From Actinotalea sp. JY-7876 (GTDB taxonomy: Bacteria; Actinomycetota; Actinomycetes; Actinomycetales; Cellulomonadaceae), in assembly GCF_014042015.1 (NCBI RefSeq), contig NZ_CP059493.1, positions 2,666,001-2,730,000 of the forward strand: a stretch of 64,000 nucleotides of DNA, written 5' to 3'. The first letter of the stretch is position 1. Every line of letters starts with the position of its first letter. The notes beneath the pieces were generated by a model. That model saw only the letters and a program-made list of their open reading frames with translations, searched no databases and was not told the origin of the DNA. This document shows positions 5,644-36,727 of this stretch, piece after piece. Made by a program: the position numbers and the translations under genes.

Positions 5644-6582
5644 TCAGCCCTTGGCGCCGGTGGTGGCGATGCCCTCGATGAAGTGACGCTGGCCGAGGAA
5701 GAAGATGATGATCATCGGCACCGTCGTGATGACGCTGGCCGTGACGATGATCTCCCAGTGCCACTCGCCGCCGAACCCGTACTGGTCCACGAGCGACTTG
5801 AGCCCGCGCGGGATCGTGAACGTGCTCGAGTCCCGCAGGTAGATGAGCGGCCGCATGAGGTCCGTCCATGCCGCCTGGAGCTCGAACAGCAGCGTCACCA
5901 CGACGGCGGGTCGCGTCAGCGGCAGGGCGATCTTCCAGAACAGCGTCCAGTTGTTGGCGCCGTCGAGCGTCGCCGCCTCGAACGGGTCCCGCGGCAGGCC
6001 CTGGAAGAACTGCCGCATGAGGAAGATGTAGAACGCGGACCCGAAGAGGTTGCCCGCCCACAGCGGCGTCAGCGTCCCCACCTGCCCGAGCGAGTTCCAG
6101 ATGAGGAACGTCGGGATCATCGTCACGGCACCCGGCAGCATCATCGTCGCCAGCACGAGGCCGAAGAGCGCCTCCCGCCCCCGGAACCGGAAGTACGAGA
6201 ACCCCCAGGCGACCATCGCGCTCGAGATCGTCACCGTGACGGCCGCGAGCACCGTCACGATCACCGTGTTGAGCAGCCAGAGCGCCATCGGCGCCTCCTG
6301 CCACACGTTCAGGTAGTTCTCGACCGTGAACGTGTCCGGGATGAGCTTGTTGTCGAACACCTCGCCGCGCGGCTTGAAGGACGCGCTGAGCAACCACACG
6401 AACGGGTAGACGAAGATCAGCGTGGCGACCCCGAGCGCGGCGAGCACCAGCACCCGTCCGACTGTCAGCCGCGGTCGCCGCTGCGGCGGCAGCCCGCCCG
6501 TCTCCTGCACGACGGCGGCGAGGCCCAGGCTCTCGACGCGCGTCGCGTCCGCGGACCCCGCGGCGCCCACGTTGACGCTCAC
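5644..6582 (-). CDS. Carbohydrate ABC transporter permease, MalG type
   Basis: Inner-membrane permease of 312 residues with six predicted helices. Its cytoplasmic EAA loop, E-A-A-T-L-D-G-A-N-N-W-T-L-F-W-K-I-x-L-P-L, couples to a shared ATPase of the MsiK/MalK kind; none is encoded here. The GTG start overlaps the stop of the upstream permease gene by four bases (GTGA), so the two are translationally coupled. It is the last gene of a binding protein - permease - permease operon. The sugar substrate cannot be deduced. Confidence 0.92.
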   Translation of the reverse strand: MSVNVGAAGSADATRVESLGLAAVVQETGGLPPQRRPRLTVGRVLVLAALGVATLIFVYPFVWLLSASFKPRGEVFDNKLIPDTFTVENYLNVWQEAPMALWLLNTVIVTVLAAVTVTISSAMVAWGFSYFRFRGREALFGLVLATMMLPGAVTMIPTFLIWNSLGQVGTLTPLWAGNLFGSAFYIFLMRQFFQGLPRDPFEAATLDGANNWTLFWKIALPLTRPAVVVTLLFELQAAWTDLMRPLIYLRDSSTFTIPRGLKSLVDQYGFGGEWHWEIIVTASVITTVPMIIIFFLGQRHFIEGIATTGAKG

Positions 6583-7559
6583 CGGTCCTCCCCCTCGTAG
6601 AAGACGAACCGCCTGGACACCCGCAGCTGGACCAGCGTGACGAGCAGGATGATCACGAAGAGCAGCCACGCGAGCGCCGACGCGTACCCCATGTCGAGGA
6701 ACTCGAACGCCTGCCGGAACAGGTAGATGACGTAGAACAGGGCGGCGTCGTTGCTGTAGGTCGTGTTCCCCGACCCGAAGAACGCGGTGTACGCCTCGGT
6801 GAACGTCTGGAAGCTCGCGATGGTGTTGACGACGACGATGAAGAAGATCGGGCCGCTGATCATCGGCAGCGTGATCCGCAGGGTCCGCTGCCAGAAGCCG
6901 GCGCCGTCGACCCGGGCCGAGTCGTAGAGCTCCTGCGGCACGCTGCGCAGCGCCGCGAGCAGGATGATCACCGACGAGCCGATGGCCCACAGGCTCATGA
7001 GGACGATGCCGGGCTTGACCCACGCCGGGTCGGTCGTCCAGTTCGGGCCGTCGATCCCGAACCAGCCGAGCACCTCGTTGACCAGGCCGCCCTGCCCGTT
7101 GAACAGCAGCAGGAGCAGCACGCCGACGGCGACCGGCGGGGTCATCTTGGGCAGGAAGAAGGCCGTGCGGAAGAACCCCGCCGAGCGCCCCGCCTGGTTG
7201 AGCAGCAGGGCGAGCGCGAGCGACAGGATCACCAGCAGGGGCACGTGCAGCACCGTGTAGTAGAAGGTGTTCCACAGGGCGAGGCGCACGTCGTCGTCCT
7301 GCGCCATGCGCTCGTAGTTCTCGAGCCCGACGAACTCGGGGTCGGTCAGGACGTCGTAGTCCGTGAGCGACAGGTAGCCGCTGTAGAGCACGGGCCAGAG
7401 CGTGAAGACCAGGAAGCCGACGATCCACGGACTGAGGAACAGCAGGGCACCGCGCAGCTCCCGGTGCCGGGTCCGGCGCTGGCCGGGCCGCTCCGCCGGG
7501 CGGCCCGCGCTCCGGCCGCGGCCCTCGGCCGCGGCCGGCGACGACGTCGTCGCGGTCAT
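6579..7559 (-). CDS. Carbohydrate ABC transporter permease, MalF type
   Basis: Inner-membrane permease of 326 residues. After a charged N-terminus of about 35 residues come six hydrophobic helices starting with the L-F-L-S-P-W-I-V-G-F helix. The EAA loop reads E-L-Y-D-S-A-R-V-D-G-A-G-x-W-Q-R-T-L-R-I-T-L-P. Its start lies 7 bases after the stop of the substrate-binding lipoprotein gene, and its end overlaps the second permease by four bases, so the three genes form one operon. Confidence 0.92.
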   Translation of the reverse strand: MTATTSSPAAAEGRGRSAGRPAERPGQRRTRHRELRGALLFLSPWIVGFLVFTLWPVLYSGYLSLTDYDVLTDPEFVGLENYERMAQDDDVRLALWNTFYYTVLHVPLLVILSLALALLLNQAGRSAGFFRTAFFLPKMTPPVAVGVLLLLLFNGQGGLVNEVLGWFGIDGPNWTTDPAWVKPGIVLMSLWAIGSSVIILLAALRSVPQELYDSARVDGAGFWQRTLRITLPMISGPIFFIVVVNTIASFQTFTEAYTAFFGSGNTTYSNDAALFYVIYLFRQAFEFLDMGYASALAWLLFVIILLVTLVQLRVSRRFVFYEGEDR

Positions 7560-7566
7560 CGCGGCC

Positions 7567-8970
7567 TCAGCCCTGGTCCTCGTCCCACTCCGCCCACGCC
7601 TCGTCGAGCGCCTCCTGCGCCTCGGCCTGCGCCTGGGCGAGGGCTTCCGCGGGTTCCGCCTGGCCGTTGAGCACGCGGTTGACCGCGTCCTGCCACGCGG
7701 CCTTGAACTCGGCGTCCGCCGGGTTCGCCGGGAGGTTCACGGCATGGTCGTTGGCCTCGTAGATCGCGGCGACGGCCGTCGCCCACGGCTCGGGCGCGTC
7801 CGTGGGCACGAGCTCGGAGCGGATCTGCTCGTCCGCCTCGGCGTTGCCCGTGAGCAGGCCGGTGAAGAGCTGCCCGGACTCGGCGCGCTGGTCGGCGCGC
7901 TCCTGCGCGGCCGCGAGCCAGGAGTCGGTCGCCGTGATGACGCGGATGAACCGGCACGCGGCGGCCTGGGTCTCCTCGGTCCCCGCCGGGATCGCCCACG
8001 CGGAGCCACCGGAGTAGGCGAGCGCCTCGCCGTCGCGCCCGCGGAAGGTGTCGAAGACCATGGGGGCGTCGGCCGAGACCTCGTTGAGCACGTTGACGTA
8101 CCAGTTCTCCATCGGCATGGCACCCAGCACGCCGGTCGCGAACTGGTTGCCCTCGCCGAAGAAGTCCGCCGCGTCGCGGTAGGCCTTGACGCCGCCGAAG
8201 CCGCCCTGCTGGTCGTAGACCTCGACCGCGAACTCGAGGGCCTCGACCACCTTCGGGTCGTCGAGGTTCGCGCTGCGGGCGTCGTCCGACAGGAGGTCCG
8301 CGCCGTTGGCCTTGGCCCACAGCGGGAGGAACTCCGGGAGCTTGGAGTCGTAGCCGATGACGCTGAGGTCGCCCCCGGAGCCCTGCGTGAGCGCGGTGGT
8401 GGCGGCGGTGACCGCCTCCCAGTCCGAGCCGTTGACGTCGTCGACGCTCAGACCGGCCGCCTCGAGCAGGTCCCCGTTCGCCATCGTGATCTGGACCTGC
8501 ATGAACTCCGGCAGGGCGTAGAGCGCGCCGTCGAAGGTGACCTGCTCGAGCGCGGTCTCGCGGAACACGGACGTGTCGATCCCCTCGCCCTCGACGCATG
8601 CGTCGAGCGGGACGATCGCACCGCGCGAGGCGAACGTGCCGATCTGGTCGCGGTTCGCGTAGACGAGGCCGGGCGGGTCACCCGCGGCCACGGCCGAGAG
8701 GAACTGCTGGATGTCGAGGTCACCCTCGACCAGCGAGACGTCCACGCCGTCGCCGAGCTCCTCGAGCGCGAGGTCGTGCCGGACCTCCGCGACCTCGTCG
8801 ACCAGACCGAACCCCATCACGGACATCTCGCCGGTGAGCTCCGCGTCGGGGTCGTAGGCGACGTCCTCGCCGCCGCTCTCGCCGGTGGCCCCCGTGCCCT
8901 GCGCGCAGGCCGTCAGCGCGACGGCCGACGTCGCCACCAGGAGGACGGACCGCACTGCTGCGCTTCTCAT
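7567..8970 (-). CDS. Extracellular sugar-binding lipoprotein (ABC importer)
   Basis: Family 1 solute-binding protein of 467 residues. The signal peptide ends in a lipobox L-T-A-C (Cys21), so it should be lipid-anchored outside the membrane. The mature part has the two-lobed SBP_bac_1 pattern, for example the Y-A-L-P-E-F-M-Q-V-Q-I-T-M hinge segment. The C-terminus ends in an Ala/Glu-rich helix. It is first in the operon with two permease genes. GGGGG lies six bases before the ATG. Confidence 0.92.
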   Translation of the reverse strand: MRSAAVRSVLLVATSAVALTACAQGTGATGESGGEDVAYDPDAELTGEMSVMGFGLVDEVAEVRHDLALEELGDGVDVSLVEGDLDIQQFLSAVAAGDPPGLVYANRDQIGTFASRGAIVPLDACVEGEGIDTSVFRETALEQVTFDGALYALPEFMQVQITMANGDLLEAAGLSVDDVNGSDWEAVTAATTALTQGSGGDLSVIGYDSKLPEFLPLWAKANGADLLSDDARSANLDDPKVVEALEFAVEVYDQQGGFGGVKAYRDAADFFGEGNQFATGVLGAMPMENWYVNVLNEVSADAPMVFDTFRGRDGEALAYSGGSAWAIPAGTEETQAAACRFIRVITATDSWLAAAQERADQRAESGQLFTGLLTGNAEADEQIRSELVPTDAPEPWATAVAAIYEANDHAVNLPANPADAEFKAAWQDAVNRVLNGQAEPAEALAQAQAEAQEALDEAWAEWDEDQG

Positions 8971-29322: not shown

Positions 29323-29768
29323 GCGCGGCCGCCGCGCCGGGCGCGGTCGAGGCCGGTGCGCGCCCGAGCGTCCTGTTCGTGTGCGTCCACAACGCCGGGC
29401 GCTCGCAGATGGCGGCGGGCTTCCTCACGGCTCTGTCGGGCGGCGCGGTCGAGGTGCGATCCGCGGGATCGATGCCCGCCGAGCAGATCAACCCGGCCGC
29501 CGTCGAGGCGATGGCGGAGGTGGGCATCGACCTCCGCTCCGAGCGCCCCAAGGTGCTCACCGCCGAGGCCGTCCAGGCGTCCGACGTGGTCGTGACCATG
29601 GGCTGCGGCGACGCGTGCCCGTACTACCCCGGCACCCGGTACGAGGACTGGGCCCTCGAGGACCCCGCCGGCCGGGGCGTCGAGGCGGTGCGCCCCATCC
29701 GCGACGAGATCCGCGCCCGCGTCCTGACGCTCCTCGCCGAGCTCGGCGTCCCCCCGGTCGACGCCTGA
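29319..29768 (+). CDS. Arsenate reductase-like / low-molecular-weight protein tyrosine phosphatase
   Basis: A 149-residue enzyme of the ArsC thioredoxin/mycoredoxin-coupled class. The P-loop is C-V-H-N-A-G-R-S (Cys22), and a Cys pair appears in [12 protein letters not shown], the usual resolving cysteines of this family. The ending [17 protein letters not shown] is also typical. No arsB/acr3 or ArsR gene is adjacent. GTG overlaps the peptidase stop by four bases. A long perfect hairpin follows the stop. Confidence 0.88.
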
Positions 29769-29772
29769 CGCC

Positions 29773-29822
29773 GGTTCTGGCACGGATCCGGGTGCCGCCG
29801 CGCCGGGATCCGTGCCAGAACC
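29773..29822. terminator. Perfect 17-bp inverted repeat between arsenate reductase and ligase genes
   Basis: Arms 29773-29789 (GGTTCTGGCACGGATCC) and 29806-29822 are exact reverse complements with a 16-base GC-rich loop. It starts 4 bases after the stop and ends 38 bases before the ligase start. No T-run follows. It could be a terminator, a mobile palindromic element or a protein site. Confidence 0.55.
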
Positions 29823-29859
29823 CGCGCGCGGCACCGGCGGGCGCAGGAGGATGGGCCTC

Positions 29860-31413
29860 GTGCTGCTCGCCGACGTCGCCGCCACCTCGACCGCGCTCGC
29901 CGCGACCCGCTCGCGCCTCGCCAAGCGCGCACTGCTGGTCGACCTCCTGCGTCGCACCGCGCCGGCGGAGGTCCCCGTCGTGGCCCGGTACCTCGGCGGC
30001 GAGCTGCGGCAGCGGCGCACCGGCCTGGGCTGGCGATCGCTCGCGACGCTCCCCGAGCCGGCGGCCGCGCCGACGCTCGACGTGCTCGCGGTCGACGCCG
30101 CCTTCGAGCGCATGGCCGCGCTCGCCGGCCCCGGCTCCGCGACCGCCCGCACGGCGCTGGCCACGGAGCTCTTCGCCGCCGCCACGGCCGACGAGCAGCG
30201 CCTGCTCCGGGGCCTGGTGACCGGCGAGCTGCGACAGGGCGCGCTCGACGCGCTGCTGCTCGACGCGGTCGCGCAGGCCGCGGGCGTGCCGGCCGACGCC
30301 GTCCGCCGGGCCGCGATGCTCGCGGGCGCGACCGAGCCCGTCGCCGCCGCGGCGCTCGGGGCGCCGTCGCCGCAGGACGCGCTCGCCGCGCTCGACGCCT
30401 TCACGCTCACCGTCGGGCGCCCGGTCCGGCCGATGCTGGCCGCGTCGGCCCTCGACGTCGCGACCGCCGTCGCGGGGTTCGACGGCCGGACCGTCGTCGT
30501 CGACGCCAAGCTGGACGGCATCCGCATCCAGGTGCACCGGGACGGCGACGACGTCGGCGTCTACACCCGCAGCCTGGACGACATCACGGCGCGCGTCCCG
30601 GAGGTGGTCGACGTCGTGCGGGCGCTGCCCGTGACCACGGCGGTGCTCGACGGCGAGGCCCTGGCCCTGGGCGCGGACGGGCGACCGCGCCCGTTCCAGG
30701 AGACGGCGTCGCGCAGCGCGACGCGCGACGCCGAGCTCGCCGGCGCGGCGACCCTCACCCCGTTCTTCTTCGACGTGCTGCACGTCGACGGCCGCGACCT
30801 GCTGGGCGCTCCCCTGCGCGAGCGCCTCGCCGTCCTCGACGCGATCGCGCCGGACCACACGGTCGAGCGCGTGGTGACCGACGACGCCGACGTCGCCCAG
30901 GAGGCCTTCGCGCGCTGGGTCGCGGCCGGGCAGGAGGGCGTCATCGTCAAGGACGCGCAGGCGCCGTACGACGCCGGCCGGCGCGGCGGCGCGTGGGTCA
31001 AGGTCAAGCCCCGCCACACCCTCGACCTCGTGGTGCTCGCCGTCGAGCGCGGATCCGGCCGCCGCAGCGGCCTGCTCTCGAACATCCACCTCGGCGCGCG
31101 CGACCCCGAGACGGGCGGCTTCGTGATGCTGGGCAAGACGTTCAAGGGGATGACCGACGAGATGCTCGCGTGGCAGACGCAGCGGTTCCGCGAGCTCGAG
31201 GTCGCCGATGACGGGTGGACGGTGACGCTGCGGCCGGAGCAGGTCGTCGAGATCGCGTTCGACGGGCTGCAGCGCTCGACGCGCTACCCGGGCGGCCTGG
31301 CGCTGCGCTTCGCGCGCGTCCTGCGCTACCGGGACGACAAGACGCCCGCCGAGGCGGACACGATCGGCACGGTGCGGTCCCTGCTCCATCCAGGCGATGG
31401 CGCCAGCGCCTGA
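29860..31413 (+). CDS. ATP-dependent DNA ligase (LigB/LigC-like), 3' end rebuilt by island
   Basis: A 517-residue ligase. The N-terminal DNA-binding domain begins [21 protein letters not shown]. The adenylation motif I is D-A-K-L-D-G-I-R (Lys217), motif IV is E-G-V-I-V-K-D, motif V is W-V-K-V-K-P. An OB-fold follows. GTG 29860 was chosen because it gives the family's exact opening and is nine bases after GGAGG; ATG 29851 abuts the ribosome site. The last 210 or so bases recur downstream at 35382 with two mismatches, but the C-terminal tail ([11 protein letters not shown]) differs from the tail of that copy (E-L-S-P-P-G-G). Confidence 0.9.
31168..31377 (+). repeat. Ligase 3'-end repeat, copy A (in the intact gene)
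   Basis: A 210-bp segment at the 3' end of the ligase gene. It is 208/210 identical to 35382-35591, and diverged versions are found at 33651-33895 and, for the preceding bases, at 31741-31784. Identity with copy D stops abruptly after GGTGCGG. Confidence 0.9.
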
Positions 31414-32031
31414 CTACAGGAGGAGCGCACGACTGCGACTATGTGAATCGCGGAGGAGCGAGACAAGGAACGCATGCGCGAGGCGTGCGGTTCCCATGCA
31501 ATGGGACGTGATCGGGGTCGCCGATGTTCCCGAAGCTGCAGGCGAGTACGACTGCATGATTGGACCGTTGGTCGGGCACCTGCAGACACGCGCCGATTGC
31601 AGACTTCCTGCGGAGCAGGGTCGCTCGTGAACGTGTCGATCACTTTGGATTGAACCCCGACATTGGCGCCGACCGCCACTTGCCGACGCGCCGGCGGCGT
31701 GGTGACGCCGCCGCGAGCCCCAAGGTGATCGGGTTGCCCGCAAGACGTTCAGGGCATTACGGACGAGATGCTCGCGTGACAGAGTGCGGTCCGGGCGAGT
31801 CTCAGTGAGGGGTTCAGCCATCCCCACGATCGCCCGGTCGGCGCGGCCTGAGGTTTGCTCACGTCGTCCGATACGCTGCAGACATTGGTCCCCACGGAGC
31901 CGCCACGATCAAAGCAGCAACGGATTACCCATCGAGAGGGTCGAGACGGAGCGGCGGGGACAGGCTGCCACGAAGACTTGTATGGCAGGATGCAAGCCGA
32001 GGCGATTACGACCGGAAGGCTGCACGCGACG
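31414..32031. other. Gene-poor stretch within the island
   Basis: 618 bases with stop codons in all frames at short intervals and no convincing gene. It contains the short ligase fragment at 31741-31784. The region before the fragment weakly echoes earlier ligase sequence (for example L-N-P-D-I-G-A against L-S-N-I-H-L-G-A), so it may be decayed ligase DNA. The promoter of the OLD-like gene should lie at its right end. Confidence 0.5.
31741..31784 (+). repeat. Ligase 3'-end fragment, copy B
   Basis: About 44 bases resembling 31134-31177 of the ligase gene: CAAGACGTTCA is identical, then a few changes, then GACGAGATGCTCGCGTG is identical. It stops near the point where copy D begins. Confidence 0.7.
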
Positions 32032-33591
32032 ATGAACGCAATAAGCCCCAGCCAGATCAACGATTTGCTGAACCGCGTTCGGCGACGTGGATACCGGAAC
32101 TACCTACTCTCGATGGATCTAAAGAAGGTACGCGGCTTTGTCGATGCCCACGTCCGGTTCGACTTTCCCGTGACAGCCCTCGTAGGGCCGAACGGCGCAG
32201 GGAAGACGACAGTCCTAGGCGCTGCGGGACTCATCTACGCTGACGTTCAACCCCGTCGGTTCTTCGCGCGAGGCGGTACGTATGATGCGTCAATGCAGGG
32301 ATGGAAGGTCGAGTACGAGGTCTACTCTGGCGGCACATCCGTCCCCCGTACGGCGTCGTACACCGAAGCAACAGCCGACGTCACGCGCAGCAAGTGGAAC
32401 AGGAAAGGTGTGGCACGGCCCGTGAAGGTCATCGGCGTGAGCCGCACCTTGCCCTTAACAGAACGTACCGACGTTCAGCGATTCGCAAAGGGCGACTTTG
32501 TCGGCGTCACCGAAGAATCCTTCACCGCTGAAGTTGTTTCTGCCGTCGAGCGAATCTTGGGCAAGCGCGCAGCGGACTATCTTCAGGTCCACGCAGACGA
32601 ACAGGGCAAGTATTCGATCTTGGCATTGAAGCCAAGCAGCCAGGCTTCGCCGGGCTACTCGGAGTTCCATTTTGGCGCGGGTGAAGCCAGTATCATCCGG
32701 ATCGTCAGCGAGATCGAGTCGGTTGAGGACGAAGCGCTCATCCTCATCGAAGAAGTCGAGAACGGCCTCCATCCCATCGCGACTCGGCGCCTCGTCGAGT
32801 ACCTGATCGCGGTGTGCCGACGCAAGGGCTGCCAAGTCATCTTCACCACGCACAGCAACGCCGCTTTGAGTCCGCTGCCGGGCGAGGCCGTGTGGTCGTC
32901 CTACCGAGGAAAGCTCACGCAAGGCAAACTCGACGTCGAGTCGCTTCGCGCACTGACCGGCGAGATTGACGCACGTCTCGCGGTGTTTGCCGAAGACAGG
33001 TTTGGAAGCCTAGTCGCGGAGGTTACACTTCGGCGCTTCGGCGATCTAACGGATCAAGCGCTCGATCTTAAAGGTGTCGAAATCCACGCGCTCGGTGGCG
33101 CCGCGCAGGCCCGCGACCAAGCGCGGCACAACAACGCAAACCCGGCCCGTCGCTTCAATGCACTTGCCCTCCTGGATGGCGACAAGAGCAGGCAGTCCGA
33201 CTACCTCCCAGCTGCACGCGAGGATCTCAACATCGACGGAAGCCCATTCGTGACCTTCTTCAGCGGGACCTCCGACCCGGAGGCGGTGATCGTCGAGCAA
33301 CTTGCTGACCTCATAGAGAGGAACGGCCGAGTCCTACCGCGACTAACTCTCGCTCTGCAAATGGACACCGGACACGAGAATCGTGTCGGGGAAGTCCTGC
33401 GCACACGCCTGCTGACGAACACCGATCGGCACGAGATCTTTAAAGAGATCGGCGAGGACCTCGACTTCCTGGGCGAGGAGGTCACAGCAAGAGCGTTTGT
33501 TTCGACATGGGCGAACTTCCACGAGGCAGAGGTGCGTGCCGTCTGGGAGCCCGTCTCGAGCCACCTGCCACTGCTGTCCGACGCCGCATAA
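32032..33591 (+). CDS. OLD-like AAA ATPase with TOPRIM-like C-terminus (putative defence nuclease)
   Basis: A 519-residue protein. Walker A is G-P-N-G-A-G-K-T-T near residue 46, the signature region is F-H-F-G-A-G-E-A-S, Walker B is A-L-I-L-I-E-E-V-E-N-G-L-H-P, and the H-loop is I-F-T-T-H-S-N. The C-terminal third has F-A-E-D-R-F-G-S and L-L-D-G-D-K-S, spaced like the Glu and Asp-x-Asp of a TOPRIM metal site. This is the plan of overcoming-lysogenization-defect nucleases. No partner helicase (as in Gabija) is adjacent. Base composition is much less GC-rich than its neighbours, a sign of transfer. ATG 32032 is the most conservative start; ATG 31990 is possible. Confidence 0.82.
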   Translation: MNAISPSQINDLLNRVRRRGYRNYLLSMDLKKVRGFVDAHVRFDFPVTALVGPNGAGKTTVLGAAGLIYADVQPRRFFARGGTYDASMQGWKVEYEVYSGGTSVPRTASYTEATADVTRSKWNRKGVARPVKVIGVSRTLPLTERTDVQRFAKGDFVGVTEESFTAEVVSAVERILGKRAADYLQVHADEQGKYSILALKPSSQASPGYSEFHFGAGEASIIRIVSEIESVEDEALILIEEVENGLHPIATRRLVEYLIAVCRRKGCQVIFTTHSNAALSPLPGEAVWSSYRGKLTQGKLDVESLRALTGEIDARLAVFAEDRFGSLVAEVTLRRFGDLTDQALDLKGVEIHALGGAAQARDQARHNNANPARRFNALALLDGDKSRQSDYLPAAREDLNIDGSPFVTFFSGTSDPEAVIVEQLADLIERNGRVLPRLTLALQMDTGHENRVGEVLRTRLLTNTDRHEIFKEIGEDLDFLGEEVTARAFVSTWANFHEAEVRAVWEPVSSHLPLLSDAA

Positions 33592-33650
33592 GGGCCGGCT
33601 GGAAGCGATAATTCAAGGCGGCCTGGTCGACTCTCAGCCACTCCTCTACT

Positions 33651-33895
33651 CAAGACACTCAAAGGCATGACCGACGAGATGCTCGCGTGGCACACGCAGC
33701 GGTTCTGCGAGCTCGTCGTCGACGACGACGGCTGGAGGGTGTGACGCTGCGCCGGGAGCAGGTCGTGAATGTCGCTTCCGACGGGCCGCAGCGGTCGACG
33801 CGCTACCCGGACCGCCTGGCGCTCAGGTTCGCGAGAGTCGTCCAGCACCGAGAGGACAAGGCGCCGGAGGATGCCGAAACGATCGACGCCGTCCG
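33651..33895 (+). pseudogene. Diverged, frameshifted copy C of the ligase 3' end
   Basis: About 245 bases align to 31134-31377 of the ligase gene, reading [15 protein letters not shown] before a 2-bp insertion at G-W-R-V breaks the frame; the ligase reading resumes as [16 protein letters not shown]. Similarity is clearly lower than for copy D. It follows the OLD-like gene stop by 59 bases. Confidence 0.85.
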
Positions 33896-34059
33896 CGCGC
33901 GCCTCTCAGGCGACGCACCCGACGAGCGCCCGGTCGGGTGGGTGTACTCGTCGCGAAGTTTCGCCGTGCCGTCGGCGCACGGCCCAACGACGGCGCACGG
34001 TTTCGCGCGCGAAGGTCGCGGCGCCATTCGCACGCCCGGCGCGCGGGGTGCACTACGTC

Positions 34060-34317
34060 TCACGGCGGCTCACGGTCCAGAGAGGCGAGGTGCGTGGCCA
34101 GCGCCTTGCGACGCTCCTTCTTCGTCAGGACGGAGCGGCGGAGCACCTGGTCGTACGACCAGACGCCGAACGCGAGACGAACGGGCTCGCGCAGGAGCGC
34201 GGCCACCCATGCCCCGGCGAGCAGCACGTAGGCGAACAGCGGGGCGCCGCTGACGAGCAGGCCCGAGGCGTACAGGCCGATGGCGGCCCCGCTTGGGCGG
34301 AAGAAAATGCGCTTCAC
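34060..34317 (-). CDS. Small hypothetical membrane protein in the island
   Basis: An 85-residue protein starting at GTG 34317: a basic N-terminus (K-R-I-F-F-R-P-S-G), two hydrophobic segments (about residues 10-25 and 27-42, possibly one hairpin), then a charged tail with [19 protein letters not shown] box lies just before the start. The frame stays open upstream to 34422, but that part is not protein-like. The family is not recognised. Confidence 0.45.
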
Positions 34318-34437
34318 GGTGTGCGTACCGGGTGGTCTCGGAAGGCCTAGGCGTCGGTCCCGGCGCCCGTGAAGTCGTGCGGTACTACGTCCTCTCTGTT
34401 TCCACAGCCCGACTCCCGTCACGGGAGATCACGGGCG

Positions 34438-34470
34438 CTAGAACCAACGCGCTAGTTCGTGCTTTGCCAT
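34438..34470 (-). CDS. Possible 10-residue leader-type peptide
   Basis: ATG 34470 begins the peptide M-A-K-H-E-L-A-R-W-F and ends at TAG. A strong ACGGAGGTG site lies eight bases upstream. A small hairpin (CTCCCGT/ACGGGAG, 34413-34427) follows 10 bases after the stop. A longer in-frame reading up to 34767 exists but looks like chance. Evidence is limited to the ribosome site and the hairpin. Confidence 0.25.
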   Translation of the reverse strand: MAKHELARWF

Positions 34471-34775
34471 CTGTGGACACCTCCGTTCCTTGATCGACTT
34501 GCCCGAACTATCGTCCGGGCGGTACCGGCCCAGAGTATCCGAAGGGCGTACTACGCGCATGTAGTTCGCTGTGGGCGCACCTCCGTCCGAGAGGGCTTGC
34601 GCCGTGCGGGGCGTTCTGTGGGCGGGACGGACGTTGACAGTGGCGCGCGCGGCACCGCACGCCTCTTGGCGAGGCGCCTCACCGACGTCCAGCCGGGTGA
34701 GAGGGCTTGTCGCCGGTGGGCGCTTCGCGTATGGAGGCGCGCAAACCACGAAGAGCCCCGCTCCCATGAGGAGGG

Positions 34776-35174
34776 CTAGGCTCTGAGTGGATCTGCCTTA
34801 ATGTGCGAGCGGTTGTGCTCTTGTGACTCACGGAACGCCTCGTGGAAGGTCGCGCGGTCCTTTCCGGTGGCGCCGCACACCGAGGACAAACGAACCGGTG
34901 AAGGGCGACTTTCCCGGATGTCCGAGGTCACGGCCGATAGCCCGGTATCCCTCGGTTCGTCTCGCAGAGGCGCCCGCGTCCCTTCGGTGAGGTGCAAGCC
35001 GCACCTCACGCAGGCGTCAGGGTCCTGGGCGTCGAACTCCGACGGGAGCAGGACCTTCACGACCGCGCCGCAGACGCCGCGGTCGTACTTCCACGAGGGC
35101 AGGAACTCTGCCTCGACTGAACGTCGCCTCCACCTCGAGACGGCGTCTACAGGTCCAGGCTCCTCCGGGAGCAC
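34776..35174 (-). pseudogene. Possible decayed small gene in the island
   Basis: A 132-codon frame whose middle reads like real protein (L-P-S-W-K-Y-D-R-G-V-C-G-A-V-V-K-V-L-L-P, then D-A-C-V-R-C-G-L-H-L). The frame is open further upstream to a stop near 35236 with no ATG or GTG and no ribosome site, so the 5' end seems to be missing. The family is not known. Confidence 0.3.
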
Positions 35175-35381
35175 CTTGTCTATCGCATGGTCCTTCGGGT
35201 CGCTTTGCTCGTCGTACGAGCCGAGGCCGGCGTAGGTTCAGCGACCCTCCGCACGGATGCTCACATTGGTGAGCGCCGCACGGAAGTCCGACAAGTAGTG
35301 CCGCGTTAAGAGAACCCCGTCATCGACTCGCCAACGTGAGCGAGCGGCGGGCTAGCGACGCACCGGCCGCCGCGATGGCCT

Positions 35382-35615
35382 GCGTGGCAGACGCAGCGGT
35401 TCCGCGAGCTCGAGGTCGCCGATGACGGGTGGACGGTGACGCTGCGCCCGGAGCAGGTCGTCGAGATCGCGTTCGACGGGCTGCAGCGCTCGACGCGCTA
35501 CCCGGGCGGCCTGGCGCTGCGCTTCGCGCGCGTCCTGCGCTACCGGGACGACAAGACGCCGGCCGAGGCGGACACGATCGGCACGGTGCGGGAGCTCTCG
35601 CCGCCGGGCGGGTAG
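35382..35615 (+). pseudogene. Displaced ligase 3' end, copy D
   Basis: Begins inside the ligase coding sequence at GCGTGGCAGACGCAGCGG, matches the intact gene for 210 bp with two mismatches, and continues in the ligase frame to its own TAG with the ending [10 protein letters not shown]. It lacks everything upstream. Most likely the original gene end, cut off by the island insertion. Confidence 0.88.
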
Positions 35616-35671: not shown

Positions 35672-36727
35672 ATGAACCCGACCATCAGCGTCCTCTTCCG
35701 CGCCATCCCGCTCGCGATGGGGGCGGTGTGCCTCGCGTTCGGGCTCGACGTCCTCGCCGCCGGGGACGACGCCGCGCACTTCGTCGCCGGGCACGTCCTC
35801 GTCGCCCTCACCGCCATCTGCGTCGCGCTCTTCACGACCGCCGCGACGATCATCCGCCAGCTCATCCACCGCTACGGCCGCCCCTGGGAGATCGCCCTGC
35901 CGGCCCTCGGGTACGCCGTCGCGCTCGCCACGGTCGGCTGGGGCATCTCGATCCTCGGACGGGGCGAGGAGCCCCAGTTCGTCGTGGCGGGCCACGTGGT
36001 GCTCGGCATTGGGTTCATCGCGACGTGCGTGAGCACCGTGGCCACGGCGTCCACGAAGTTCGTCCTCATCCAGCGCAGCGGCGCGCTGGGACCGGGCGGC
36101 GGCCCGCCCGACGGCGCCTACTCCCGGCGGGCCGGGATCGTCCTGGTGGCGATCCCCGCCGTCGTCGCGCTCGCCGGGCTGGTGATCGCCGGCACGCTCT
36201 ACGCGCAGGGCGGCACGCACGCCCTCGTCGCGGGGAACGTGCTCACCGGGCTGTCCGTCATCTGCGCGGCGCTCGTCTCCCTGGTCGCGAGCGTGGTGCG
36301 CCAGGTGCGCAACGAGTTCGGCGACGCCGAGCGCCTCCGCTGGACGTGGTGGGTCGTGGCGATGGGCACGACGAACGTGGTCCTCGGCCTCGCGGTGCTG
36401 CTCGGCTCGGACGACCCGGCCCGGATCGCCCCGGGCAACGTCCTCATCGGGCTCGGCCTCGTGTGCTTCAGCATCCTGTCGAAGGTGGTGCTGCTCGCCC
36501 TCGTCTGGCGCCGCTCGTTCCCGCTCGCCAACCGCATCCCGCTCATCCCGGTGGGGACCGCGCTGACGTGCCTCTTCTACGCCGCGTTCCTCTTCCAGGC
36601 GACGCTAACGGGGCCGGCGTTCTTCGTCCCCGCCCACGTCCTGGTCGGGCTCGGCGCCGTCTGCTTCACCCTGTTCTCGATCGTCTCGATCCTCGAGGCG
36701 GGCACGTCGGGCGCGTCGGACGCCTGA
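35672..36727 (+). CDS. DUF2776 family multi-pass membrane protein
   Basis: A 351-residue protein with about ten hydrophobic helices arranged as repeated units, each containing a V/I-A-G-H-V or A-P-G-N-V motif followed by L-x-G-L-x-x-I/V-C-x-A-L. The opening I-S-V-L-F-R-A-I-P-L-A-M-G matches DUF2776 as I remember it; the function is unknown. AAGGAG lies five bases upstream of the ATG and a TACAGT box lies at 35630-35635. The promoter sits just past the end of ligase copy D. Confidence 0.8.
   Translation: MNPTISVLFRAIPLAMGAVCLAFGLDVLAAGDDAAHFVAGHVLVALTAICVALFTTAATIIRQLIHRYGRPWEIALPALGYAVALATVGWGISILGRGEEPQFVVAGHVVLGIGFIATCVSTVATASTKFVLIQRSGALGPGGGPPDGAYSRRAGIVLVAIPAVVALAGLVIAGTLYAQGGTHALVAGNVLTGLSVICAALVSLVASVVRQVRNEFGDAERLRWTWWVVAMGTTNVVLGLAVLLGSDDPARIAPGNVLIGLGLVCFSILSKVVLLALVWRRSFPLANRIPLIPVGTALTCLFYAAFLFQATLTGPAFFVPAHVLVGLGAVCFTLFSIVSILEAGTSGASDA

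Follow-up and report, generated by a model that had tools for sequence, protein, structure and literature searches.

Staphylococcal cassette chromosome (SCC) elements lie at the 3' end of rlmH, where recombinase-less pseudo-SCC units occur in tandem. Tycheposons are cargo-carrying integrative elements that use tRNA genes, leave partial copies of the target gene and also occur in recombinase-less forms. Integron cassettes are small, mostly single-gene, integrase-less units arrayed at a fixed site. In the dif/pdif modules of Acinetobacter plasmids adaptive genes lie between short sites and, in the account outlined in PMC6449649, are thought to be moved by Xer encoded elsewhere. The sites of large serine integrases, as outlined in PMC3783163, have an outer motif placed 5 bp nearer to the centre in attB than in attP.

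Here we propose, at a probability of roughly 0.78, that in Cellulomonadaceae very small integrative cassettes insert site-specifically into the 3' part of the DNA ligase gene ligB, each cassette being composed of a ligase tail (about 250 bp), cargo and a right-end motif. These units resemble SCC in being stacked in tandem at the end of one protein-coding gene that stays whole, in carrying defence and other cargo and in having no recombinase. They differ from it in that the ligase site lies some 90 codons before the stop, each unit brings its own gene tail, the units measure only about 0.55-2.1 kb and mostly hold a single cargo gene, and the target is the ligase and not rlmH, with no ccr-type large serine recombinase gene (PF07508) listed at the locus. 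The arrangement of integron cassettes is shared, but a coding ligase tail stands in place of attC, the cargo is found in both orientations, and no IntI-type tyrosine integrase lies beside the array. As in dif/pdif modules, cargo lies between short recombination sites and the mover would be encoded elsewhere, while the ligase cassettes are chromosomal, sit at one gene and replace its tail; their core site is presumably unlike dif. Tycheposons, with their tRNA targets, are larger. Among the titles and abstract openings of the literature searched, no description of ligase-end cassettes was found.

The window, that is the whole stretch of 64,000 nucleotides analysed, carries on the + strand an ATP-dependent DNA ligase gene of the LigB type (29854..31413, 519 aa; NCBIfam NF002868, E 4.9e-240; Pfam domains DNA_ligase_A_N, A_M and A_C). 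The preliminary description had seen here one island bounded by two near-identical ligase ends. The 210-bp repeat on which it was based (31168-31377 and 35382-35591) has the reported coordinates, exactly two mismatches (31233 and 31347) and abrupt divergence on either side. However, four tail copies are present, which rules out a single two-ended island, and the real left edge is not 31168 but codon 428 (31135), as seen from copies B and C and from the relatives.

Copy A, the proximal in-gene tail (31135..31413, +), was delimited by repeat comparison and nhmmer. Behind it lies the cargo remnant of cassette 1 (31414..31721, +; GC about 0.65), with small ORFs only, none of which was recognised in family searches; a DUF1871-like identity, suggested by eye, was not supported by them. 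The right-end motif with core, aaggtgatcgggttgcccgcAAGACG (31722..31747, +), agrees at 20 of 24 specified positions and is the top match on both strands of the window, the runner-up reaching 17 of 24. Copy B (31742..31792, +) is a truncated and decayed left-half tail fragment (nhmmer E 9e-7, model positions 1-54). It is followed by the cargo of cassette 2 (32032..33591, +; GC 0.60), a 519-aa AAA_21 ATPase (Pfam) assigned by PADLOC to the candidate defence family HEC-04, and by copy C (33652..33900, +), a frame-broken tail, about 80% identical, that begins at codon 428. The cassette 3 interval (33901..35377, no strand assigned; GC 0.68) possibly holds more than one decayed cassette. Family searches recognised no gene in it, and its one weak PHROG match (E 0.001) belongs to an ORF starting inside copy C. 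The distal tail, copy D (35378..35615, +), has a stop codon of its own and no counterpart of the first 33 bp; its identity with A is 99% across 210 bp.

In the whole genome (3.55 Mb, single contig) the tail search gave three strong matches (E 6e-106, 3e-103 and 8e-45), all in the ligase locus, and three further weak ones (E 1e-4 to 6e-4). Four copies imply at least three insertions, one stacked behind another. Since two older degenerate copies sit between A and D, the 99% identity of the latter is no proof of recency; from the pair of explanations offered before, recent insertion thus stays unproven, and gene conversion, or a tail from a cassette of the same lineage, fits better. No tRNA or non-coding RNA was found at the insertion site. 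All 12 congener loci fetched, some of them on short contigs, are single-copy, but the gene after D (DUF2776) was found in one of 19 genomes, the window's own, and is absent from every congener, so that these loci do not demonstrate an empty site for the window genome.

A search of other genomes for cargo between ligase 3'-end repeats, suggested in the preliminary description, revealed arrays in 12 family genomes, counting that of the window, which belong to several genera. Across the window and ten relatives, 14 of 18 displaced copies show homology from codon 428 (GKTFKGMT) onward: in a scan model reaching 120 nt upstream of this codon (model position 121), these 14 begin at positions 88-122 and none begins before 88, the remaining four (window D, L127 and two in L132) beginning further in. 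Independent insertions therefore have a fixed attachment core in common, and this common left edge of displaced copies defines the recombination site in the ligase gene (31120..31153, +), TTCGTGATGCTGGGC followed directly by AAGACGTTCAAGGGGATGACC. At the right ends, the motif TTCGTSAYnnCGTTGCCCGS followed by AAGACG was recognised by eye at 11 of 14 junctions, B included; it is not shown at the right end of window copy C or the left edge of copy D and is poor at both L133 junctions. Judging by eye from the chimeric loci L129 and L133, the crossover would fall within AAGAC. A junction pattern run on 221 family genomes found nine sites in eight of them, all being ligase tails in genomes with displaced tails, and the reversed pattern had no match in the same 221; the pattern overlooks four of the 12 array genomes (G000, G070, G248 and G270, the window genome among them). 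A separate pattern for genome contigs had a CCC-to-core spacing one base too long, so its three species are an under-count.

A clean empty site was found when G070 (locus L152) was compared with its close relative G083 (L168): identity is 94.5% as far as the first tail extends, and from the second tail on the two are collinear again, at 93.2%. The empty site in a relative is thereby established alongside the shared breakpoint and the shared right-end motif. The earlier claim that an insertion gives the gene a new 3' end and moves the old one away is borne out in four of 11 array loci, which have a foreign tail in the proximal and a native tail in the distal position. In L128, similarity to the tails of the nearest relatives is 0.76-0.77 for the proximal and 0.91-0.94 for the distal tail, and in L129, L131 and L133 the distal tail is likewise the closer one to the relatives' native tails. 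In the window, L125, L126 and L132 both tails are about equally close, and the distal tail of L152 is strongly decayed. In L127 (0.90 versus 0.83 for the distal fragment) and L130 (0.86 versus 0.82) the proximal tail is closer to relatives, which the insertion model would not lead one to expect unless the distal copy decayed or the tails were swapped. Proximal tails are open through to the stop codon in all 11 loci. Comparison of L125 (g20) with L152 (g16) gave 75.3% identity in the gene body, 95.6% in the tail and 93.4% in the cargo, the rise coming at the site; tail and cargo have moved jointly between genera.

The preliminary description saw no integrase, and our search of the main cargo ORFs of the cassettes likewise found no recombinase, the sole integrase-type signal being a sub-threshold Integrase_Zn match in L132 (E 0.05); the own integrase of a gene-end integrative element is thus absent from them. 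A tyrosine recombinase at the array was rejected: of 15 genomes searched, the 12 with arrays have no PF00589 gene inside a cassette or next to the ligase, and the nearest, in G217, is 16 kb from the displaced tail, outside the array. PF07508 genes occur in 73 of 220 family genomes (one family genome was left out), and the window genome has none. Seven of the 12 array genomes (G000, G035, G070, G217, G228, G248 and G268) are not among these 73, which speaks against attributing the arrays to a resident large serine recombinase alone. Among the ligase places listed, with coordinates compared by eye, no PF07508 gene is close behind a ligase; the nearest are about 14 kb away on the upstream side in G284 and 61 kb away in G007. 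A likeness to large serine integrase sites was nevertheless noticed by eye, as the distance of TTCGTSAY from the core is 5 bp (at some ends 4) shorter in the gene than at the ends of cassettes, although the shift affects one arm only and the window genome is without PF07508.

A phage or plasmid origin of the tails was also rejected. By tblastn no match was found in 50,697 phage records, while 88 of 72,556 plasmid records matched the tail, at no more than 77% identity; among the best 20 of these matches, 14 fall under annotated ligase genes. IMG/VR gave no match with the first junction pattern, whose spacing overlooks some junctions, two matches with another pattern, neither encoding a ligase tail, and in the tail search one short, unrelated-looking match of 18 residues.

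The arrays could owe their existence to homologous recombination alone, with incoming DNA of a relative crossing over in conserved ligase sequence and leaving the old tail behind, no dedicated recombinase being required; the displaced 'orphan' tips of Rhs/CDI toxin loci are a parallel for such stacking. No recombinase gene was found locally, as this would predict, and the likeness of the proximal tail to the first or last displaced one (96-99% in the window, 95.5% in L126, 93% in L132) suggests exchange between copies. Also in 72 single-copy ligases tail similarity is poorly correlated with that of the remaining gene (r 0.39, versus 0.76 for the adjacent 250 bp), suggesting wide exchange, although with in-frame third-position columns the effect is weak (control r 0.39, slope 0.59; tail r 0.20, slope 0.24). 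Homologous recombination could well spread a cassette already present in a population. What it does not produce, when new cargo first joins, is one breakpoint and mostly one right-end motif with differing cargoes, and in the linker-bearing chimeras L128, L129 and L133 the joint is found at the short core or adjacent to it, outside the longer homologous stretch. We consider it unlikely as the whole explanation.

Slightly less improbable, yet still doubtful, is that the units are remnants of larger integrase-bearing elements, such as prophage satellites or ICEs, that entered at ligB and had their integrase genes deleted. Islands at gene ends often lose their integrase, and decay is evident in B, C, L152 and parts of L132 and L133. 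However, the smallest cassettes (L125, L130 and L132; about 0.55-0.6 kb with the tail) retain both ends and one ORF within 290-365 bp between tails, and one small unit is 93-96% conserved between genera, so that the small form itself is mobile. Moreover, the extra tail matches located in ten multi-match genomes all lie within a few kb of the first, with no distant tail marking a long element. A third possibility, that the ligase end was duplicated in tandem on the spot or that the assembly is at fault, and that unrelated cargo came in afterwards, would agree with the 99% identity of A and D; it is hardly credible, as arrays occur in single-contig genomes (G000, G217, G268, G269 and G270) and in several genera, four loci have foreign proximal tails, and tail and cargo move as one unit. 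At the level of the whole family it is already refuted.

Most likely, then, integrase-less cassettes pile up at ligB in Cellulomonadaceae through the action of a site-specific recombinase supplied in trans. A cassette would begin with the ligase tail from codon 428, continue with usually one cargo gene and end with the right-end motif. In a putative circular form this motif would abut the tail and so make up the cassette attachment site. Recombination in the 5-bp AAGAC at codons 428-429 would open the ligase gene, connect the 5' part with the new tail and push the old tail downstream behind the cargo. Since this leaves an uninterrupted gene and restores the site, more cassettes could stack. 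The window would thus hold at least three stacked units, of which the middle one carries HEC-04, and the last 92 codons of its ligase would be the contribution of the newest cassette.

The HEC-04 profile of PADLOC matches the 519-aa protein over its full length (residues 2-513, E 9.9e-182), and Pfam AAA_21 matches at E 1.8e-20; among 199 genomes, one strong homologue besides the window genome was found, in G194 (54%). Other defence-type cargo includes AbiJ_NTD4/PDC-S32 (AbiJ-like) and PDC-M55C/HEC-05-like genes, and further cargo types across the array loci are GmrSD-like and ORC-like genes. Such similarities suggest that part of the cargo may act in defence. A cargo protein of 99 aa is encoded in 12 of 220 family genomes; in six of them a ligase tail precedes it at no more than 0.4 kb, by a proximity scan that for L289 landed on a wrong place.

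We see about an even chance that this is an integron-like system not previously described, in which integrase-less, mostly one-gene cassettes with defence genes or small genes of no known kind pass among genera of Cellulomonadaceae, the ligase gene being their only known landing site, paid for with a working tail. The recombinase would lie outside the array and is perhaps a serine integrase, suspected from the 5-bp shifted arm. It is largely an open question how single defence genes are acquired other than in large islands and prophages, and here the transfer unit would be very small and the breakpoint exact, while a repair gene of the host would be put together again from pieces that the invader brings. 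This raises a testable puzzle, namely which recombinase moves units that carry none. The right-end motif may in turn serve as a search key for more cassettes, by which candidate defence genes could be listed by position and not by similarity.

The 3' end of the window's ligase gene, which encodes a LigB-type ATP-dependent enzyme of 519 aa (start at 29854; NF002868, E 4.9e-240), is repeated as claimed in the preliminary description, with 31168-31377 and 35382-35591 differing at 2 of 210 positions. The two copies do not simply bound an island, as had been proposed there: further ligase 3' ends (tails) are present between them. Along the strand we find the ligase body, tail A (31135-31413), a remnant, copy B (31742-31792), which is a decayed left half of the tail only, a HEC-04 gene, copy C (33652-33900; identity about 80%, frame broken), an unrecognised interval and copy D (35378-35615). 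The 3.55-Mb single-contig genome gives three strong tail matches, each at this locus. That A and D are nearly identical, with older copies lying between, is most readily explained by either gene conversion or a newest cassette bearing a tail of the same lineage, a cassette being a ligase tail with its cargo and a right-end motif. All 12 congener loci fetched have a single tail, but none serves as the window's own empty site, the gene following copy D being absent from the congeners.

Directly behind copy D lies a DUF2776 gene (35672-36727; Pfam E 5.7e-141), present in a single one of 19 genomes from the genus; the DNA following the array may therefore be another acquired segment. In three congeners (L044, L047 and L048) sequence matching the MmpL-type gene region (40021 onward) follows the ligase at a distance of about 0.1-1.5 kb. 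Just 5' of the ligase gene, a 42-nt imperfect inverted repeat at 29754-29841 (4-nt loop, 76% complementary) is possibly the terminator of the preceding gene.

A search with the ligase C-terminus gave a match in 165 of 221 genomes of the family, which is probably to be taken as Cellulomonadaceae in the broad GTDB sense, and more than one in 10 (the window's G000, and G035, G049, G217, G228, G248, G268, G269, G270 and G286). A pattern for the junction of motif and tail added G291, whose sole ligase match is a tail located behind the motif and close to the end of a contig, the ligase body not being seen. G070 (locus L152) was recognised by a decayed second tail, the only one among 75 fetched loci taken as single-copy. 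Arrays, that is ligase loci with displaced tails, are thus present in 12 genomes spread over 7 genera, a count for which roughly half of the 165 loci with a ligase match were fetched and re-examined, some of them ending soon after the ligase. It is probably a lower bound, since a 99-aa cargo gene also sits behind ligases having no recognised second tail.

The breakpoint was located with a nucleotide model extending 120 nt upstream of codon 428 (31135 in the window; model position 121). Of the 18 displaced copies in the window and ten relatives, 14 start at model positions 88-122 and none before 88; the other four (copy D, one in L127 and two in L132) start later. The slight overreach upstream of position 121 is motif in most copies and linker in two copies of L133. 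By eye, 11 of 14 cassettes end close to TTCGTSAYnnCGTTGCCCGS before AAGACG, with copy C and two L133 ends fitting poorly, and the gene side reads TTCGTSATGCTSGGC before AAGACG. Comparison of these two sides places the outer TTCGT block 5 bp (4 in some ends) further out in the cassette than in the gene. On both strands of the window the best match to the motif consensus, which was drawn mainly from relatives but after junction B had been seen, is that junction (20/24; next best 17). Over the 221 genomes the junction pattern hit 9 sites in 8 genomes, all of them ligase tails in genomes with displaced tails, although one of the two G286 sites is no cassette end but the inner GKTFKG in a copy with a linker. 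The reversed pattern gave 0 matches across the same genomes. The pattern misses four array genomes (G000, G070, G248 and G270), and among 396 genomes sampled from the order only G217, itself a family member, matched.

One cassette is shared by L125 (genus g20) and L152 (genus g16), whose tails are 95.6%, cargo 93.4% and ligase bodies 75.3% identical. Measured in 60-column steps, identity does not exceed 88% ahead of the site, is 90-100% across the tail and most of the cargo and 80-87% at the cargo end, and drops after the next AAGAC core; 3 kb beyond the two arrays do not align. An empty site is provided by L168 (G083), 94.5% identical to L152 through the ligase gene and collinear with it from the second tail of L152 onward (93.2% over 8.6 kb). 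Twelve of 220 genomes have this cassette's 99-aa cargo gene, and in six of these a ligase tail precedes it by at most 0.4 kb: with displaced tail and motif in G268, G070 and G228, behind a displaced tail without motif in G248, and with neither a recognised second tail nor motif in G119 and G116. The remaining six genomes have the gene at other places, and in the five whose scan covered it no motif accompanies it. In G116 (L282) an almost perfect long palindrome (CCCCTTCGAGACCTAGGTTTCTTCGCTTTC with its complement) stands just behind the 99-aa orphan gene, which ends at 1791 in the orientation scanned; the palindrome may be terminator-like or a mobile-element end.

A cassette inserting at codon 428 would make the proximal, in-gene tail the newcomer and the distal one native. 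For L128 the tails of the nearest ligase bodies (0.91-0.92) score 0.91-0.94 against the distal copy but only 0.76-0.77 against the proximal one, and L129, L131 and L133 point in the same direction. Both tails are about equally near relatives in the window, L125, L126 and L132; contrary to the simple prediction, the proximal tail is closer in L127 (0.90 vs 0.83 for the distal fragment) and L130 (0.86 vs 0.82). The distal tail of L152 is too decayed for this comparison. In L128, L129 and L133 the ligase itself has a linker of 14-15 residues at the site, preceding GKTFKGM; by eye, the joint lies within AAGAC in L129 and L133 and at or just before it in L128. The linker comes with a near-repeat of GW.MVGKTFKGM, making these LigB proteins chimeric. 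Behind the distal tail of L128 (G248), 6382-6761 and 7151-7941 in ligase orientation have no counterpart in the near relative L151. Since the 99-aa orphan gene closely follows that tail, the region may hold a second, older cassette.

The common breakpoint, the end motif held in common despite differing cargo and the movement of the unit point to site-specific recombination with the cassette in circular form. As the preliminary description noted, no integrase is visible: no recombinase was found among the cargo ORFs searched and none is listed at the ligase locus. Known kinds of system include gene-end restoring islands, SCC stacks, integron cassettes and dif modules; none of the literature reached by our search describes cassettes at a ligase locus. 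The 5-bp outward arm shift in the cassettes resembles the attP/attB difference of large serine integrases (PMC3783163). The likeness is confined to one arm and is therefore no more than a hint.

The window's intact cargo encodes an AAA_21 ATPase of 519 aa that matches the candidate defence family HEC-04 over its full length (E 9.9e-182); among 199 genomes strong matches to this gene occur only in the window's genome and G194 (54%), the others listed being at E 1e-8 or weaker. L126 carries an AbiJ_NTD4 gene (E 1.4e-26; PDC-S32), and L131 and L133 carry related, frame-broken genes with PDC-M55C and HEC-05 matches, and L131, the one of these two loci searched against Pfam, has also a sub-threshold GmrSD_N match (E 0.012). 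PADLOC assignments refer only to four window proteins (ligase and DUF2776, outside cassettes, included) and four other cargo ORFs. L128 has an ORC-CDC6-like ATPase (E 3.6e-8), L132 an 80-aa ORF with a sub-threshold zinc-ribbon match, and further arrays small ORFs of no family. Cargo is present in both orientations and so need not depend on ligase transcription. GC content is 0.61 in the window cargo interval vs 0.74 for the window, and 0.57-0.72 in intervals above 250 bp vs about 0.72-0.75 in most host loci.

The host ligase gene appears to have been kept working with the supplied end, because proximal tails are open to the stop in the ligase frame at 11 of 11 loci, several displaced tails have broken frames, and comparison of proximal with distal tails gives a dN much lower than dS at the four loci for which it was calculated (L125, L126, L128 and L129; dS above 1 in two). 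The low ratio mostly reflects time before displacement. Among 72 single-copy ligases, similarity of the tail tracks that of the remaining gene only poorly (r 0.39, slope 0.25), whereas similarity of the neighbouring 250 bp does so better (r 0.76, slope 0.75); the contrast is weaker at synonymous third positions only (r 0.20 vs 0.39). This weak correlation suggests, though not decisively, that tails have been swapped widely, also in genomes with no remaining array.
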